From Bacteroidales bacterium (GTDB lineage: Bacteria > Bacteroidota > Bacteroidia > Bacteroidales > Muribaculaceae): DNA of 51,087 bases. The stretch spans positions 1-51,087 of the forward strand of contig JAAVFV010000070.1 in the NCBI GenBank assembly GCA_014800525.1. Reading direction: 5' to 3'. Shown here one piece after another: positions 3,608 through 30,869 of this stretch. Under the pieces are notes generated by a model. That model searched no databases. It saw nothing but the letters and a program-made list of their open reading frames with translations, and was not told where the DNA came from. A program made the translations under genes and the position numbers. How positions within the stretch are numbered: position 1 is the first letter of the stretch; the number at the start of each line of letters is the position of its first letter.

Positions 3608-5398
3608 TCAAAGGGGAAGGGTCTTTTCAGCGAGCCATTTCTGCTCCTCCGGTTCGAGGAGAGGTGAGAGAGCTGCATACACTTCCTTATGATAATTATT
3701 CACCCAATTGATTTCCTCTTCAGTCATGATATCTTTCTGGAAGAGAGTCCGATCGAAGGGGAAGAGGGTCATCGGCTGGAATTTATAGAACGCACCGAAT
3801 TCAGTGGTCATCGCCGGGACGGTAACGATAAGGTTTTCGCAACGGATGCCATAGCGTCCTTCAAGATAGAGACCGGGCTCATTGCTGGTGATCATCCCGG
3901 GTTCCAGAGGAGTGGGGTTATGGTTAAGACGGATATTCTGCGGCCCCTCATGGCAATTGATGAAGAAGCCTACGCCATGGCCAGTGCCGTGGTAATATGC
4001 CTTTCCTTCCTTCCAGAGGAACTGTCGGGCCAGCACATCAAGCTGATCACCACGTGTGCCCTGCGGGAAGATGGCATTAGAGAGAGCTATATGGCCTTTC
4101 ATCACGAGAGTGAAGTCATGAATCTGGTCGGCAGTAGGAGTTCCGAGTGCGATGGTACGCGTGATGTCAGTGGTGCCATAGACATACTGGCCACCGGAAT
4201 CCACAAGCAACAGACCGTCGCCGACAATTGCAATATCAGTTTCTTCAGTGGCCTCATAATGAACAATCGCTCCATGAGCATTCCAACCAAGAATAGGAGC
4301 AAAACTTTCATCCACACAAGCCGGATCTGCAAGTCGCAGGGCACGTAGGCGTTTGCCGAGTTCCACCTCTGTGAGCTTACCTTCCGGATATTCCTTCTCC
4401 ACCATCATGAAGAATCGTGTGAGGGCCACGCCATCTTTCTTCATTGCCGTTTCCAGATGCGATATCATAGTGGCATTTTTGATGCTCTTGAGCTTTGCAA
4501 CTCCGGCTCCTCCGAATACAGGCGTGCATCCGATATGGTCGTATAGACCACGCGCGGTCTTCATCGGGTCGATAAGTAGGCGCGTCTCTTTAGGTAGGGC
4601 AGCAGCGAAATCAAGAATGGAATCATAGGGTTGAACCTCAAAATGATATTTATCAAGATGCTTTTGAACTTCCTCCGTGATTTTCTCCTTATCGATGAAG
4701 AGTACCCGGCGATCGGCATCCAGATATAAGTAAGCCACAAAAATTGGGGAGAATGCGATATCGTTGGCTGTACGCAGATTAGTGACCCATGCGATATCAT
4801 CAAGAGAGGAGAGCATCACGGCATTTGCAAGTTCACCTTTCACCTGCTCCATCACGGCCTCGACTTTGCTATCCACTGTCTGTCCCACGATTTCTTCATC
4901 ATGGACAAACAGCTTGTTCTTGGGACGCTCCGGACGGTCGGGATAGATATAGTCAAACTGAGGGAAATTATCGACAAACTTTATTCCGTTATCGTTAAGT
5001 TCCTGTTCGAGGCGCTGGGCATAGCTGACTGAGAAGGTCATACCATCAATTGCCAGTGTCTGTCCGGCATTGAGATGTTCAGTGACCCAATCGATAAGGT
5101 CAACGGCGTCGGGGCCATCCTCCTTCATCATCTGAAAACCGGTGTCTTTCAGTTGCATTTCAGCCTGAATGAAATAGCGGGAATCGGTCCAACAATAGGC
5201 CTGATCAGCGAGCACCACAGCAGTTCCGTTAGTGCCGTTGCCGGATTCAAACCCGGTGAGCCATTCTCGACCGCGCCAATGCATGGGTGGAAGCTCACTC
5301 TGATGAGGGTCGGTGCCGGAGATAATCACAGCATCGATTCCCTTATCTTTCATCACCTTGCGTAGAGCCTCAAGGTATTCGAAATTTTTCTTTGCCAT
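3608..5398 (-). CDS. Xaa-Pro aminopeptidase (M24B, aminopeptidase P family)
   Basis: A 596-residue cytosolic metallopeptidase removing N-terminal residues that precede proline. It has the three-part layout of long aminopeptidase P enzymes: two creatinase-like N-terminal domains (about 1-310) and a pita-bread catalytic domain. Metal-ligand motifs are visible in order: two Asp in VDSGGQYVYGTTDITRT, His in GTGHGVGFF, and two Glu in TSNEPGLYLEG and RCENL. The length matches eukaryote-like APP1 forms common in Bacteroidetes. No signal peptide is seen. It is the first gene of a likely two-gene unit with the gamma-carbonic anhydrase; no functional link between the two is known to me. Confidence 0.93.
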   Translation of the reverse strand: MAKKNFEYLEALRKVMKDKGIDAVIISGTDPHQSELPPMHWRGREWLTGFESGNGTNGTAVVLADQAYCWTDSRYFIQAEMQLKDTGFQMMKEDGPDAVDLIDWVTEHLNAGQTLAIDGMTFSVSYAQRLEQELNDNGIKFVDNFPQFDYIYPDRPERPKNKLFVHDEEIVGQTVDSKVEAVMEQVKGELANAVMLSSLDDIAWVTNLRTANDIAFSPIFVAYLYLDADRRVLFIDKEKITEEVQKHLDKYHFEVQPYDSILDFAAALPKETRLLIDPMKTARGLYDHIGCTPVFGGAGVAKLKSIKNATMISHLETAMKKDGVALTRFFMMVEKEYPEGKLTEVELGKRLRALRLADPACVDESFAPILGWNAHGAIVHYEATEETDIAIVGDGLLLVDSGGQYVYGTTDITRTIALGTPTADQIHDFTLVMKGHIALSNAIFPQGTRGDQLDVLARQFLWKEGKAYYHGTGHGVGFFINCHEGPQNIRLNHNPTPLEPGMITSNEPGLYLEGRYGIRCENLIVTVPAMTTEFGAFYKFQPMTLFPFDRTLFQKDIMTEEEINWVNNYHKEVYAALSPLLEPEEQKWLAEKTLPL

Positions 5399-6691: not shown

Positions 6692-7885
6692 ATGTTTATG
6701 AAGAAACTTTTACTTTCCCTCGGGCTTCTCGCAGGCGTAATGGGCGCTAATGCAGAGGTCAAGACTGTAGTGTACGACTTTGCAAACAATACTTATGGTC
6801 TTACACGCGAATCAGACAATGCCGCAGGTTATATTGAGAACGGTACAAAACTGACAGAGAACGATGGTACCGCCGTGACACTTGTAAAGGATGCGGAGAA
6901 AAATGGCTGGCGCCTCTGGACAGATGGACTCCGCGTGTATAAGAATAGCAATGCCGGTGTGAAGATTTCCACTACCACCGGAAAAATTACCAAGGTAGCT
7001 TTCGATATGGCCAAGGATAAGGTGATTTCTGCTGTTAATGGTACAACAGTGTCGGGCAAAAGCTTTACATTTACTGCTGATGCCAAAGATCTCGATCTGA
7101 CATTTAATGTCTCCAACAATGGTGCAATCGCCTCGATGACCCTGACAATTGATACAGATGGTACCGGTGGTGGCGGTGGCGAGACCCCTGACGTGCCCGA
7201 TACACCCACTGAGGTGAAGTCGGTCAGAGAGACAATCGCTCTGACAGATGGCACAGAGTTTATTGTAGGTTATCCTCTGACAATCGCCTTTATGAACTAC
7301 AGCAATATCTTTGCAGTAGACGCTGCCGGCGATTTCATCCAGGTATATGCTAAGGGGAACACCTATAAAACCAATGACGTGATTCCGGCAGGTTGGACAG
7401 GTACATACAAACTCTATAGCGGAACCACTCCTGAGATAGAACCCGTCGGATCAATGCCTGAATCGACTGAGACTAAGGAATACACTCCGAAAGTGGTGAA
7501 GGCTGCTGATATCACAGTGGCGATGGTAAACAGCGTTATCGCAGTCAAAGATGTGGTCCTCACGGAGGCATCTCCCGCTACTAAGGATAACTTTACCGGA
7601 ACAAGTGAAGGCGTATCGCTCACATTGCGTAATAACTATGCTCTTGAGTCAGTGGCTGCCGGCACTTACAACATGACACTCCTCGTGAATGTGTACAAAG
7701 GTGACTTACAGCTTTATGTGATCAACTACGATGCAAAAATCACAGAATCCGGTGTAGCTGCAATCGAAGCTGAGAATGGAGAGGCAGAATTCTTCAATCT
7801 TCAGGGTATGAAGGTGGCTAAGCCGGAGAATGGCCTCTATATCAAGGTTCAGAACGGTAAGGCTTCTAAAGTACTGGTGAAGTAA
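6692..7885 (+). CDS. Exported beta-rich surface protein with type IX-like C-terminal tail
   Basis: I do not recognise a named family for the 397-residue body. It has a signal peptide (about 1-21, cleaved after NAEV/NA), an N-terminal beta-rich domain, a Gly/Pro/Asp/Thr linker around residues 155-172 (GTGGGGGETPDVPDTPTE), and a second beta domain. The last 30 residues, EFFNLQGMKVAKPENGLYIK then a short Lys-rich strand, resemble the C-terminal sorting tails of Bacteroidales type IX cargo. Export and surface anchoring are therefore likely; function is unknown. ATG 6692 and ATG 6698 are both possible starts. The gene is monocistronic, between its own promoter and a strong terminator. Confidence 0.8.
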   Translation: MFMKKLLLSLGLLAGVMGANAEVKTVVYDFANNTYGLTRESDNAAGYIENGTKLTENDGTAVTLVKDAEKNGWRLWTDGLRVYKNSNAGVKISTTTGKITKVAFDMAKDKVISAVNGTTVSGKSFTFTADAKDLDLTFNVSNNGAIASMTLTIDTDGTGGGGGETPDVPDTPTEVKSVRETIALTDGTEFIVGYPLTIAFMNYSNIFAVDAAGDFIQVYAKGNTYKTNDVIPAGWTGTYKLYSGTTPEIEPVGSMPESTETKEYTPKVVKAADITVAMVNSVIAVKDVVLTEASPATKDNFTGTSEGVSLTLRNNYALESVAAGTYNMTLLVNVYKGDLQLYVINYDAKITESGVAAIEAENGEAEFFNLQGMKVAKPENGLYIKVQNGKASKVLVK

Positions 7886-7918
7886 GTTAACTTATGTAGC
7901 AGTATCATCTCCTATATT

Positions 7919-7956
7919 AGCTCCGGGAAGGCTGTTCCGCCTTCCCGGAGCTTTGT
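7919..7956 (+). terminator. Strong intrinsic terminator
   Basis: A perfect 14-bp GC-rich stem (7919-7932 with 7939-7952) with loop TGTTCC, followed by TTGTATTATTT. It lies 33 bases past the stop of the surface protein gene. Confidence 0.9.
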
Positions 7957-7978
7957 ATTATTTGGTAAAATCTGAATG

Positions 7979-8025
7979 TAGAATCATTAAATTCAGAGAA
8001 ATATAGAATCATTAAATTCAGAGAA
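7979..8025 (+). repeat. 22-bp direct repeat, two copies, period 25
   Basis: The copies at 7979-8000 and 8004-8025 are identical and start TAGAATCATTAAATTCAG. They lie in non-coding sequence between a terminator and the RNA candidate. Two copies only, with no spacer diversity, so this is not CRISPR. It could be a slippage duplication or a paired operator. Confidence 0.9.
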
Positions 8026-8029
8026 TGGA

Positions 8030-8083
8030 GGATGCAAATAGGGCTAAGACTATAAAAATAGGGTGCATCCAACTGATTTTTTT
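8030..8083 (+). terminator. Hairpin with T run, possible second terminator
   Basis: A 7-bp stem GGATGCA/TGCATCC (8030-8036 with 8064-8070) encloses a 27-base loop with two ATAGGG copies. It is followed within a few bases by a run of T residues near 8076-8083. It may insulate the downstream promoter at 8116. The long loop makes it a weaker terminator than the one at 7919. Confidence 0.45.
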
Positions 8084-8115
8084 GAATTTTCACGAATAAA
8101 AATGAAAATATCGTA

Positions 8116-8145
8116 TTGCAGAATCATTTATTTTAACTAATTTTG
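8116..8145 (+). promoter_or_regulatory. Promoter for the structured RNA candidate
   Basis: TTG (8116-8118), a 19-base spacer and TAATTTTG (8138-8145) form a full Bacteroidetes promoter. The expected start near 8150 coincides with the first base of the first long-range stem at 8151. Confidence 0.8.
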
Positions 8146-8150
8146 CAGTG

Positions 8151-8468
8151 TCATAACTGCAGTATAGCCGGACCCATAAAATTGAATATGAGAATTTTCA
8201 GATTCAATGGTCTGGAAAGAATCGAAAGAAGTATACCCGGTTATGATCAAACTGTGAGGCGTTGCCTAAGAACGACTCACATGATTAACACAAAAACTAA
8301 AGTGTTAGTATTATAGAGATGGCAAGTCAAATAATCTTTAAGAAGTAATAGTGATATAAAATTTGTAAGTTAGTGGTTTAGTAGGATTATGGCCGACTTG
8401 TGAAAGCCGACGGAATCTAAAAAATCACAAGGCGGCACGTGATTGTGAAATCATGTGCCGTCATGTTT
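8151..8468 (+). ncRNA. Candidate structured RNA or switch-type leader, about 310 nt
   Basis: I do not recognise this as tmRNA, RNase P RNA, 6S or SRP RNA. Its folds are visible by eye. P1 is a long irregular hairpin of four nested stems (8151-8157/8240-8246, 8162-8166/8232-8236, 8171-8174/8209-8212, 8181-8187/8202-8208). P2 is 8253-8258/8276-8281. P3 is 8286-8291/8302-8307. P4 has two nested stems (8323-8328/8395-8400, 8331-8336/8385-8390). A terminator hairpin ends it. Near the 3' end TCACAA (8425-8430) can pair with either of two TTGTGA copies (8398-8403 or 8443-8448), the second inside the terminator. A promoter ends 5 bases before P1. It may be a free small RNA or an attenuating leader for the gene at 8562. 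A 42-codon ORF (8188-8316) overlaps P1-P3 but looks incidental. Confidence 0.55.
8433..8468 (+). terminator. Intrinsic terminator of the RNA candidate
   Basis: A 12-bp stem with one G-U pair (8433-8444 with 8449-8460) and loop GTGA, followed by TCATGTTTTTCT. It lies 93 bases before the next start codon, so it could also act as an attenuator for that gene. Confidence 0.85.
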
Positions 8469-8504
8469 TTCTCTCCAATTTCACACTCTCTCCTATAAAT
8501 TGAG

Positions 8505-8512
8505 TAAATTTG
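8505..8512 (+). promoter_or_regulatory. Possible -7 box for the small exported protein gene
   Basis: TAAATTTG is a fair -7 match 49 bases before the ATG at 8562, but the upstream box is poorly placed (TTTC about 22 bases away). If it works, the downstream pair does not depend on readthrough of the 8433 terminator. Confidence 0.4.
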
Positions 8513-8561
8513 CATTATTAAAATGGGCCTTGATTATACAGATACAGACGATTGACCTAAT

Positions 8562-9131
8562 ATGAACGAAAAGATAACCACATATTCAAATAATTCAATA
8601 TCGTCTCTCAGAGTAATATATCCTATATCGGACGTACTTAAAAGGATTATCTTGCGGGTATGGCTTATGGTGTTTATCGCTCTGTGTGCCGGTATGAGCC
8701 TGAACGCTCAGGAAAGAGAGTCCGATAAAGCCCTTGTCTTAGAGTTTTCCGACAATACGTCTGAGTATATTCTCCTTTCATCCACCAATCATATAGGATA
8801 TGATGGACAGCAGCTGACTATTACCACAGCATATGCCACATACTCTTTTATTCCTGACGAAATAATAGGATTTAAATTCGATACCGTCTGGCCCACATCA
8901 TTGAATGACGCAAAGGGAATGGAGCCATTGATTAGAATTTTAGATAATGGAGTGGAGATTATACCCGTAGACGGGGAAAAAGAACTCGTCACCATATATG
9001 ATCTTCAGGGGGATAAGATATGGGAAAGTTTGGTAACGGTGCCTATGATACTGTCAGGAGAGATTATAGGCTCCGGATTGCGTATTCTGACCATAAACGG
9101 AAGGTCGGTAATAAAAATGGAAATAAAATGA
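8562..9131 (+). CDS. Small exported protein of unknown function, coupled to CotH gene
   Basis: A 189-residue protein with a long basic N-region and a hydrophobic segment (VWLMVFIALCAG) ending in SLNAQ near residue 50, which reads as a signal peptide with an extended N-terminus. The mature part starts ERESDKALVLEF and is beta-rich. Its C-terminus (IYDLQGDKIWE ... INGRSVIKMEIK) resembles a degenerate type IX sorting tail or the LQG motif of Bacteroidales surface proteins. No enzyme motif is visible. Its TGA overlaps the ATG of the CotH gene (ATGA at 9128), implying translational coupling and a joint role at the envelope. It lies directly downstream of the structured RNA candidate. Confidence 0.7.
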   Translation: MNEKITTYSNNSISSLRVIYPISDVLKRIILRVWLMVFIALCAGMSLNAQERESDKALVLEFSDNTSEYILLSSTNHIGYDGQQLTITTAYATYSFIPDEIIGFKFDTVWPTSLNDAKGMEPLIRILDNGVEIIPVDGEKELVTIYDLQGDKIWESLVTVPMILSGEIIGSGLRILTINGRSVIKMEIK

Positions 9132-10777: not shown

Positions 10778-12013
10778 ATGAATATACTTCGTGACATTGT
10801 CTTATTCGATACAGAGGATACCTACGAGAATCTCCTTCCCCTGAGCTATACACGCCCGATAGCTGATTTCCGGATAGGAATTGACACTATCCGCCAGAAA
10901 TGGGAAGCATTCCTTCCGGGAAATTACCAGTATCTTCCGGTAGCATATCTGCGCGAAAAATTCGGAACGGAGACCTGTAATGACCGACATGTACTTCATA
11001 TAGCCGGAAACATTGTTCCTAACCGAGAGATTGTAGAGACCGTCAGTGCTCTTAAAGTGGGAGAATCAGTTCGTGATGAGAATGGTCTTGTAGCCGCCTA
11101 CTGCCGATTATCCGAACTCCCGGAGTTTATATCCGAGGCCAAAACCGGTAATAGGGGAGGGGAGATTGAGACTACAGGCCGCAGACTCAATTACGTCTTT
11201 GATATCTTCCTCCTGAACGGTACGGTAATCAAGGAAGACTTTGCCAGAATCACGGCCGGACGCAAATCTGCACCGTTATCCCAAACTGTCACCATTATCG
11301 GAAACGCCGAAGACGCCGAAGGAACACCGATGGTATTCATTGAGGAGGGAGCATCAGTAGAAGGAGCTATCCTGAATGTAAAGAACGGCCCGATCTATAT
11401 CGGTCGGGAAGCTGAAGTATGGGAAGGGAGTTGTCTGCGTGGCCCGCTTGCCTTATGCGGAAACGCAAAAATAAGAATGGGAGCGAAGATTTACGGATCG
11501 ACCACGATCGGCCCCTATTGTAAGGTTGGCGGAGAGATGGATAATGTGGTATTGTTCGGCTATAGCAACAAAGCACACGACGGTTATCTTGGGAATGCCG
11601 TAATAGGAGAATGGTGTAATCTCGGAGCGGGCACAAATGCCTCGAATCTCAAGAACGACTATGCCAAGATACGTATCTGGAATTATGCGACACGTCGGTT
11701 TATGCGCACCGATCTTCAATTCTGCGGCCTCATCATGGGCGATCATTCCAAAGCCGGGGTTAATGTAATGTTCAATACGGCCACGGTAGTGGGAGTGGGA
11801 GTAAATATCCATGGAGCAGGATTTCCGCGGGTATTTGTACCGAGTTTCAGTGAAGGATCATCCGAAGCCGGATTTACCAACGTCTCGATTGATAAATTCA
11901 TGACCACGGCGAGCCGTGTCATGAGCAGGCGTGGCCTTGAGCTCACTGACCTCGACCGACGCATATGCGAATATATCTATGAATCGGCTCAGCGGTTCAA
12001 AGGAAGCAGATAG
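10778..12013 (+). CDS. GlmU-like putative sugar nucleotidyltransferase
   Basis: A 411-residue protein of the alternative bacteroidal GlmU-type family: a short N-terminal nucleotidyltransferase-like domain (about 1-190, opening MNILRDIVLFDTEDTYENLL) and a left-handed beta-helix of hexapeptide repeats (about 195-380). The segment NAVIGEWCNLGAGTNASNLK matches the acetyltransferase core of GlmU-like enzymes. The likely job is making UDP-GlcNAc or a related sugar nucleotide for the cell wall and LPS, but the N-terminal domain lacks a clean GXGTRMXXXXPK loop, so uridyltransferase activity is uncertain. It is monocistronic, ending about 100 bases before the str operon promoter. Confidence 0.82.
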   Translation: MNILRDIVLFDTEDTYENLLPLSYTRPIADFRIGIDTIRQKWEAFLPGNYQYLPVAYLREKFGTETCNDRHVLHIAGNIVPNREIVETVSALKVGESVRDENGLVAAYCRLSELPEFISEAKTGNRGGEIETTGRRLNYVFDIFLLNGTVIKEDFARITAGRKSAPLSQTVTIIGNAEDAEGTPMVFIEEGASVEGAILNVKNGPIYIGREAEVWEGSCLRGPLALCGNAKIRMGAKIYGSTTIGPYCKVGGEMDNVVLFGYSNKAHDGYLGNAVIGEWCNLGAGTNASNLKNDYAKIRIWNYATRRFMRTDLQFCGLIMGDHSKAGVNVMFNTATVVGVGVNIHGAGFPRVFVPSFSEGSSEAGFTNVSIDKFMTTASRVMSRRGLELTDLDRRICEYIYESAQRFKGSR

Positions 12014-30797: not shown

Positions 30798-30869
30798 GTC
30801 TCCATAGTTCAATGGATAGAATATCGGATTCCGGTTCCGACGATTAGGGTTCGACTCCCTATGGAGATA
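30798..30869 (+). tRNA. tRNA-Arg, anticodon CCG
   Basis: A cloverleaf folds by eye. The acceptor stem is 30798-30804 with 30862-30868 (first pair G-U), discriminator A30869. The D arm is GTTC/GAAT (30807-30822). The anticodon stem TCGGA/TCCGA encloses loop TTCCGGT with anticodon CCG at 30831-30833. A four-base variable loop follows, then T arm TAGGG/CCCTA with loop TTCGACT. The 3' CCA is not encoded. It reads CGG codons. Confidence 0.93.

Follow-up and report, generated by a model that had tools for sequence, protein, structure and literature searches.

The window, by which is meant the whole 51,087-nt stretch of Muribaculaceae DNA analysed here, contains a gene for a structured RNA whose best-conserved element, a 36-nt seed, is complementary to mRNA start regions of phage-type capsid and packaging genes to a degree well above controls. 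The gene most probably (at a probability of about 0.68) encodes a chromosomal, trans-acting antisense small RNA (sRNA) of a single Muribaculaceae genus, the seed of which would pair with, and repress, the starts of these genes. If this is true, the RNA might represent a fixed, single-seed guard, or else a lysogeny brake exploited by the elements concerned, acting on virion production, and a seed that fits capsid, packaging and lysis starts would tie the RNA network of the host to the way in which gut bacteria control their resident phage-type elements. As predictions go, it is a direct one, consisting of named start sites and a defined seed.

A structured RNA gene with a conserved 3' half

The gene-like unit occupies positions 8138 to 8466 and, as judged by sequence, is equipped with a Bacteroidetes-type promoter and an intrinsic terminator (Table 1). 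The published consensus for promoters of the phylum is TAnnTTTG, with TTTG near -33 (PMC7366714); the TAATTTTG box and the ATTG element that precede the RNA fit this consensus, and the promoter lies just before the first stem, where the original prediction had placed it. Of 57 homologous cores, 53 have a -7 box in the 200 nt that precede them, and two of the other four are cut by a contig end; the same motif occurred in 437 of 4000 random windows. Scanning for sigma-70-type promoters revealed no excess (2 found against 3.3 expected), as is to be expected for the Bacteroidetes phylum. The strong terminator that had been described after the hairpins was also evident, comprising a 14-pair stem (8431-8462) followed by T-rich sequence, with two-sided changes in homologues. 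Three terminator-like sites were detected in the scanned interval 7880-8600, as opposed to 0.2 expected, the other two representing the end of the upstream gene. Predicted transcripts of homologous RNAs are mostly shorter than that of the window, with a median of 204 nt and a range of 167-324 nt (n = 48).

Table 1. Positions in the window of the RNA gene, its parts and its neighbours.
Feature	Position	Strand	Basis
Promoter: ATTG at 8115-8118, -7 box TAATTTTG at 8138-8145	8115..8145	+	Sequence; homologous position in relatives
Predicted trans-acting small RNA transcript, ~315 nt	8152..8466	+	Promoter to terminator; fold z -4.95 for the whole predicted RNA
5' domain: nested P1 (about 8152-8245) and two hairpins	8152..8310	+	z -5.03; own genome only, among 61
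Conserved core, covariance model R1	8308..8474	+	DNA search, alignment, R1 search
Small hairpin AGAU/AUCU with conserved GGCAAGUC loop (by eye)	8317..8337	+	Alignments; outside the counted structure
Seed, C-free, complementary to capsid/packaging gene starts	8343..8378	+	96% mean majority identity
Helix H1: GUGGUU (8373-8378) with AAUCAC (8423-8428)	8373..8428	+	97.9% of cells paired; 3/6 pairs with two-sided changes
CUU-GUGA-AAG hairpin, GNRA tetraloop	8397..8406	+	Alignments, covariation
Intrinsic terminator, loop UU-GUGA-AA	8431..8470	+	Terminator scan; 13/13 stem pairs with two-sided changes
Separate -7 box of the next gene, TAAATTTG	8505..8512	+	Read in the sequence
pepP (M24 aminopeptidase), divergent from the RNA at most loci	3608..5398	-	Locus layouts
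Sugar nucleotidyltransferase, frequent downstream neighbour before rpsL-rpsG-fusA	10778..12013	+	Locus layouts

Conservation is restricted to the 3' half of the RNA. A DNA search of 61 genomes returned matches in 19, the own genome counted; a few of these extend over just 26-72 bases, and one (in G014) is a target site as opposed to an RNA. Those in other genomes all start at query base 162 or beyond. When the 5' domain is folded to minimum energy, the nested P1 of 96 bases appears together with two further hairpins; however, P1 is not the conserved part, and the 5' domain that contains it has no relative among the 61 genomes by DNA search, so that support from covariation is confined to the 3' half. 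The 3' part (8311-8466) has a folding z of -3.58, and its consensus structure differs from the single-sequence fold of the same interval except at the terminator.

A covariance model (R1) built from an alignment of 16 cores detected matches at E <= 0.01 in 59 of 397 Muribaculaceae genomes, 56 of them belonging to the genus and three to other genera. The latter three (E 0.003-0.01) are at chance level for 397 genomes and were rejected; three of the in-genus matches are weak, and at least some of these weak matches represent a second RNA type. Taking R1 and seed-profile searches together, the RNA is present in 68 of the 111 genomes of the genus, usually in one copy, these counts being drawn from incomplete genomes in which absence is no proof. 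Ten genomes were first seen by the seed profile alone and then confirmed with R1, and an eleventh R1-confirmed genome (G434) carries a condensed form. In four genomes the RNA has shrunk to the seed and the terminator hairpin (L165, L166, L179, L459). An exact core pattern was matched by 42 sequences labelled Muribaculaceae, Muribaculum, Bacteroidales, Bacteroides or Porphyromonadaceae, and had no exact match in viral contigs.

Alignment of the homologues revealed compensatory changes, with 24 of 29 pairs showing two-sided changes among 57 distinct sequences. Paired cells amounted to 94.9%, compared with 76.0% in shuffled controls, and the covariation score was 0.552, compared with 0.193 when shuffled and at most 0.118 when slid, figures to be read in the light of the alignment being fitted to R1, which favours the R1 structure, and of related sequences inflating shuffle tests. 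The terminator accounts for the largest share of the covariation, and H1 and both middle helices also have two-sided changes. Variants of the tetraloop in homologues stay within GNRA (GUGA, GAGA, GCGA or GGGA). Together with a recurrent chromosomal position and the conserved promoter and terminator, this covariation supports the proposal of a free-standing structured RNA, and the presence of a gene-like unit as first noted is confirmed.

The RNA could at first not be assigned to tmRNA, RNase P, 6S or SRP RNA, and the 4227 Rfam families searched, which include all four, produced at gathering score a single match in the window, a tRNA at 30798; over the RNA region, all matches at E up to 10 were far under the respective cut-offs. 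Bacteroidales-1 (RF01693) is likewise a structured RNA of Bacteroidales, and its sole match in the own genome (G000) lies at a different locus (C46:40195-40380), with none at the RNA locus. 6S-Flavo (RF01685) had no match in 5 genomes, and likewise none in 14 control genomes, so that its absence carries no weight.

Chromosomal setting

The pepP cluster comprises 49 proteins over 59 locus layouts, some of which represent the same contig twice. A sugar nucleotidyltransferase gene with rpsL-rpsG-fusA is frequent downstream of the RNA, and another clade has different downstream genes, located on the opposite strand. In the window four genes, including the CotH pair, are inserted around the RNA; the setting upstream of CotH is a local insertion. 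A set of 30 pepP loci (13 from in-genus genomes without an R1 match and 17 from other genera) contained no convincing R1 match, the best having an E of 0.0035 over 134 kb; three of the 17 other-genus loci are those with the weak R1 matches. Twenty of the 30 upstream stretches were read, and at the pepP locus of G007 (L120/L167) the position is taken by an RNA-like unit of another kind, which has a -7 box and carries a UUGUGAAA terminator but lacks the seed.

The exported-protein and CotH genes lie directly downstream of the RNA and on the same strand, and a leader of this pair had been considered as an alternative to a free-standing RNA. That the RNA acts in cis as a leader or attenuator of these genes is nevertheless highly improbable, given that it ends in a terminator, that the next gene has a -7 box of its own, and that the downstream gene varies between loci, being on the opposite strand at some of them, with no downstream gene conserved. 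Even less credible is that the RNA is a tiny mRNA encoding the peptide MASQKxFK. The ATGGCAAGTC motif and a short frame are found in 24 of the 57 sequences, but the start is absent from 33 (two of which are cut by contig ends), and changes in the length of the A/T run shift the frame and alter the end of the peptide.

Complementarity of the seed to phage-type gene starts

Majority identity reaches 0.96 in the seed and 0.95 in H1, compared with 0.66-0.68 in the middle and terminator hairpins. The seed, which lacks C in the window copy and whose last six bases double as the 5' side of H1, is predicted to be largely unpaired, being less paired than the remainder of the RNA in 46 of 48 predicted ensembles (mean unpaired fraction 0.53 versus 0.37).

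In the own genome, scores were obtained for 148 ORF starts, representing ORFs of at least 90 aa, chance ORFs included, from the window, contig C10 and part of contig C57. The three highest belong to phrog_27246 (24.5), an SU10-type capsid (19.5) and an amidase (17.5), with the next at 11.5, and all three genes are members of one terminase/capsid/amidase cluster on C10. The reversed motif scored at most 14 on own-genome ORF starts. Both the seed and the leaders are low-complexity sequence; shuffled leaders scored as high in 0, 4 and 1 cases per 20000 for phrog_27246, capsid and amidase, respectively, and the corresponding predicted duplex energies are -33.0, -25.2 and -21.9 kcal/mol.

The cluster (L344 5168-15429, G000:C10) sits between the genes for 3-dehydroquinate synthase and PEP carboxykinase and encodes a terminase large subunit (phrog_2), phrog_27246, a phrog_22323 protein, the SU10-type capsid, two small genes and the amidase, with capsid and packaging roles assigned by fold or family resemblance. 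The SU10-type capsid gene occurs in 74 of the 111 genus genomes, and in 34 of the 46 good ones, and phrog_27246 in equally many, on which basis the cluster seems to be resident, perhaps as a capsid-forming satellite or a domesticated prophage. Elsewhere in the same genome, near 34217 of C57 (L374/L193), TATCACTATTACTT, which is complementary to the 5' part of the seed, is repeated several times in tandem in the leader of a short frame.

Across the genus, a 23-mer search permitting up to 3 mismatches returned few sites outside the RNA gene, about equal in number to the reversed control, and a profile search was therefore used instead. The sequence-only profile of the seed complement identified 39 sites outside RNA genes in the 111 genomes. 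Thirteen are located at the start codon of a matching-strand ORF of 90 aa or longer, at distances ranging from 14 nt upstream of the ATG to 2 nt within, and 26 are not at such start codons; the reversed profile gave 16 sites, none of them at a matching-strand start codon (Fisher p 0.011). The 13 sites precede or overlap the starts of four capsids of an HK97-fold family, one SU10-type capsid (PF17236, above cut-off), two phrog_27246 proteins, one phrog_22323 protein, a phrog_5824 protein and, by eye, a homologue of it, an amidase (PF01510, phrog_822), a 94-aa protein on the capsid contig of G355, and a 196-aa protein.

The HK97-fold assignment is a probable one, made for a family of 352-353 aa from the model of one member. 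The seed complement was found at the start codons of this family in G355 and G014, and the site is likewise present in the homologues of G015 (323 aa) and G409 (321 aa). Among 17 members of the family, four have scores of 22.5-29, a fifth scores 16, and the other twelve do not exceed 14; the maximum over 720 control starts was 16, except for two of at least 17 that are antisense to the RNA gene itself.

Homologues of the two best own-genome candidates were picked regardless of the site, as the best-matching 30 of each, with the truncated capsid loci L409 and L426 dropped. Scores of at least 17 were obtained for 5 of 28 SU10-type capsid starts and 5 of 30 phrog_27246 starts, and scores below 16 for 22 and 25, respectively, the highest value over several possible start codons and seeds being used in each case, in an interval slightly different from that of the 720 controls; one capsid start, from a genome without a detected RNA, scored 16. 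Most homologous capsid genes are without the site. Within this best-matching set, all ten scores of at least 17 come from RNA-carrying genomes (10 of 39 starts versus 0 of 19, Fisher p 0.022), and a rank test of scores in RNA-carrying versus RNA-lacking genomes was not significant (p 0.051). In genomes at least 90% complete, the RNA and the SU10-type capsid occur together in 28, the RNA only in 3, the capsid only in 8 and neither in 9 (p 0.0017); over all 111 genomes, G434 included, the numbers are 51, 17, 23 and 20. Kinship is ignored in both the co-occurrence and the score contrasts.

The correspondence between seed and site within individual genomes is looser. Often the site of a genome is fitted better by other seed variants than by the genome's own, which ranks 8 of 27 in G001 and 11 of 27 in G419, and in G409 the site tracks the unusual seed of that genome in two features but not at the centre, so that co-change is partial only. 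The RNA of G015 (L020/L036) is without most of the seed, yet the genome carries the best-scoring capsid leader site. Capsids of IMG/VR phages showed no excess, with at most 16 over 76 starts against controls of up to 17.5, and among 50 exact matches of the seed complement in viral contigs one lies 11 nt upstream of the start codon of an ORF of 90 aa or longer, with none nearer, as can be ascribed to chance.

That the shared motif is instead a DNA or mRNA leader element of phage-type genes, such as a protein site or a translation enhancer, with no pairing in the cell, is considered unlikely. The RNA would then hold the complement for another reason, for example because it arose from a leader copied in antisense. 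The occurrence of tandem sites in some leaders (G005, G265, L433, L450), as seen with protein sites, and the absence of the site from most capsid genes would both be in keeping with this. However, within this covarying RNA the complement is the part conserved most strongly, with less pairing than in the remainder, and the sites at start codons are mostly in the orientation needed for pairing, with 13 so placed as opposed to 3 of the 39 similarly placed on the opposite strand.

Predicted mode of action and relation to known sRNAs

Since the seed is complementary to the starts of capsid and packaging genes, the RNA probably controls these genes, and most likely silences them. The seed would pair with the start regions of phage-type capsid, packaging-related and amidase mRNAs, covering the ribosome-binding region, and translation initiation would be blocked in a manner analogous to that of the Bacteroides sRNA GibS, perhaps with RNase cleavage in addition; we infer the pairing from complementarity and assume repression by analogy. 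The clearest predicted targets are the terminase/capsid/amidase cluster carried by most genomes of the genus and the putative HK97-fold capsids of some other prophage-like loci. A more tentative reading, for which the odds appear somewhat under even, is that a single seed with hardly any variation acts through a shared leader on several phage-type elements that are unrelated to one another, silencing their capsid and packaging genes.

Pairing over a start codon usually represses. This is also the outcome reported for pairing over the start region in the case of GibS (PMC7366714), and it speaks against the RNA pairing with the leaders so as to activate or stabilise them, or against the phage-type mRNAs acting as sponges that titrate the RNA from host mRNAs. 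In either event the elements would keep the site because it benefits them, and in some genomes two capsid families without detectable similarity do retain complementarity over about 20-33 nt, which would be hard to explain were repression purely harmful to the elements. Activation or titration nevertheless seems improbable, and rather more so than the leader element without pairing. With silencing as the preferred reading, the retention of long sites by the elements suggests either that they gain from being controlled, for instance because no capsid would be made during dormancy, or that some further role constrains the leader and is taken advantage of by the RNA.

To our knowledge, few sRNA targets are known in Bacteroidetes. 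No description of the present RNA was found in the open-access literature searched, judged by titles and the starts of abstracts. GibS (PMC7366714) is likewise an intergenic, trans-acting sRNA with a terminator, from the same phylum, and its conserved single-stranded seed pairs with translation initiation regions, in parallel with the seed considered here. GibS is located between a para-aminobenzoate cluster and the glycogen operon, whereas the present RNA lies beside pepP, and GibS is described as having a non-canonical promoter and as repressing metabolic mRNAs (PMC7366714). The promoter of the present RNA contains a -7 box, its seed is internal, and it combines GNRA hairpins with predicted targets of phage type. 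A single close precedent for a host sRNA acting on phage structural mRNAs was found in the open-access literature searched, namely CisR of Vibrio cholerae, which pairs with the cep mRNA of the phage CTXphi (PMC13250501). CisR is described as 3'UTR-derived and Hfq-assisted, with a filamentous phage target (PMC13250501), whereas the present RNA is free-standing, belongs to another phylum and has tailed-phage-type capsid and packaging genes as its predicted targets.

A second RNA-like motif, consisting of GUUUCAUGAUGUUAGGUUAGU and then GUAUUAUGGAAA with a terminator that has a UUGUGAAA-type loop, was observed at loci L168, L169, L170, L171, L173, L174, L175 and L176, mostly near 1500-1800. The motif is multi-copy in some genomes (G299, G036), the TAnnTTTG box is absent from the stretch checked, and in L170 it follows, by eye, the end of an apparent sigma-factor gene. 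The intergenic DNA of several genomes (e.g. at L017, L019, L184) contains tandem repeats of a degenerate kind, TTAGGCTTTAGG and CTCCTATCTCCTAT being examples.
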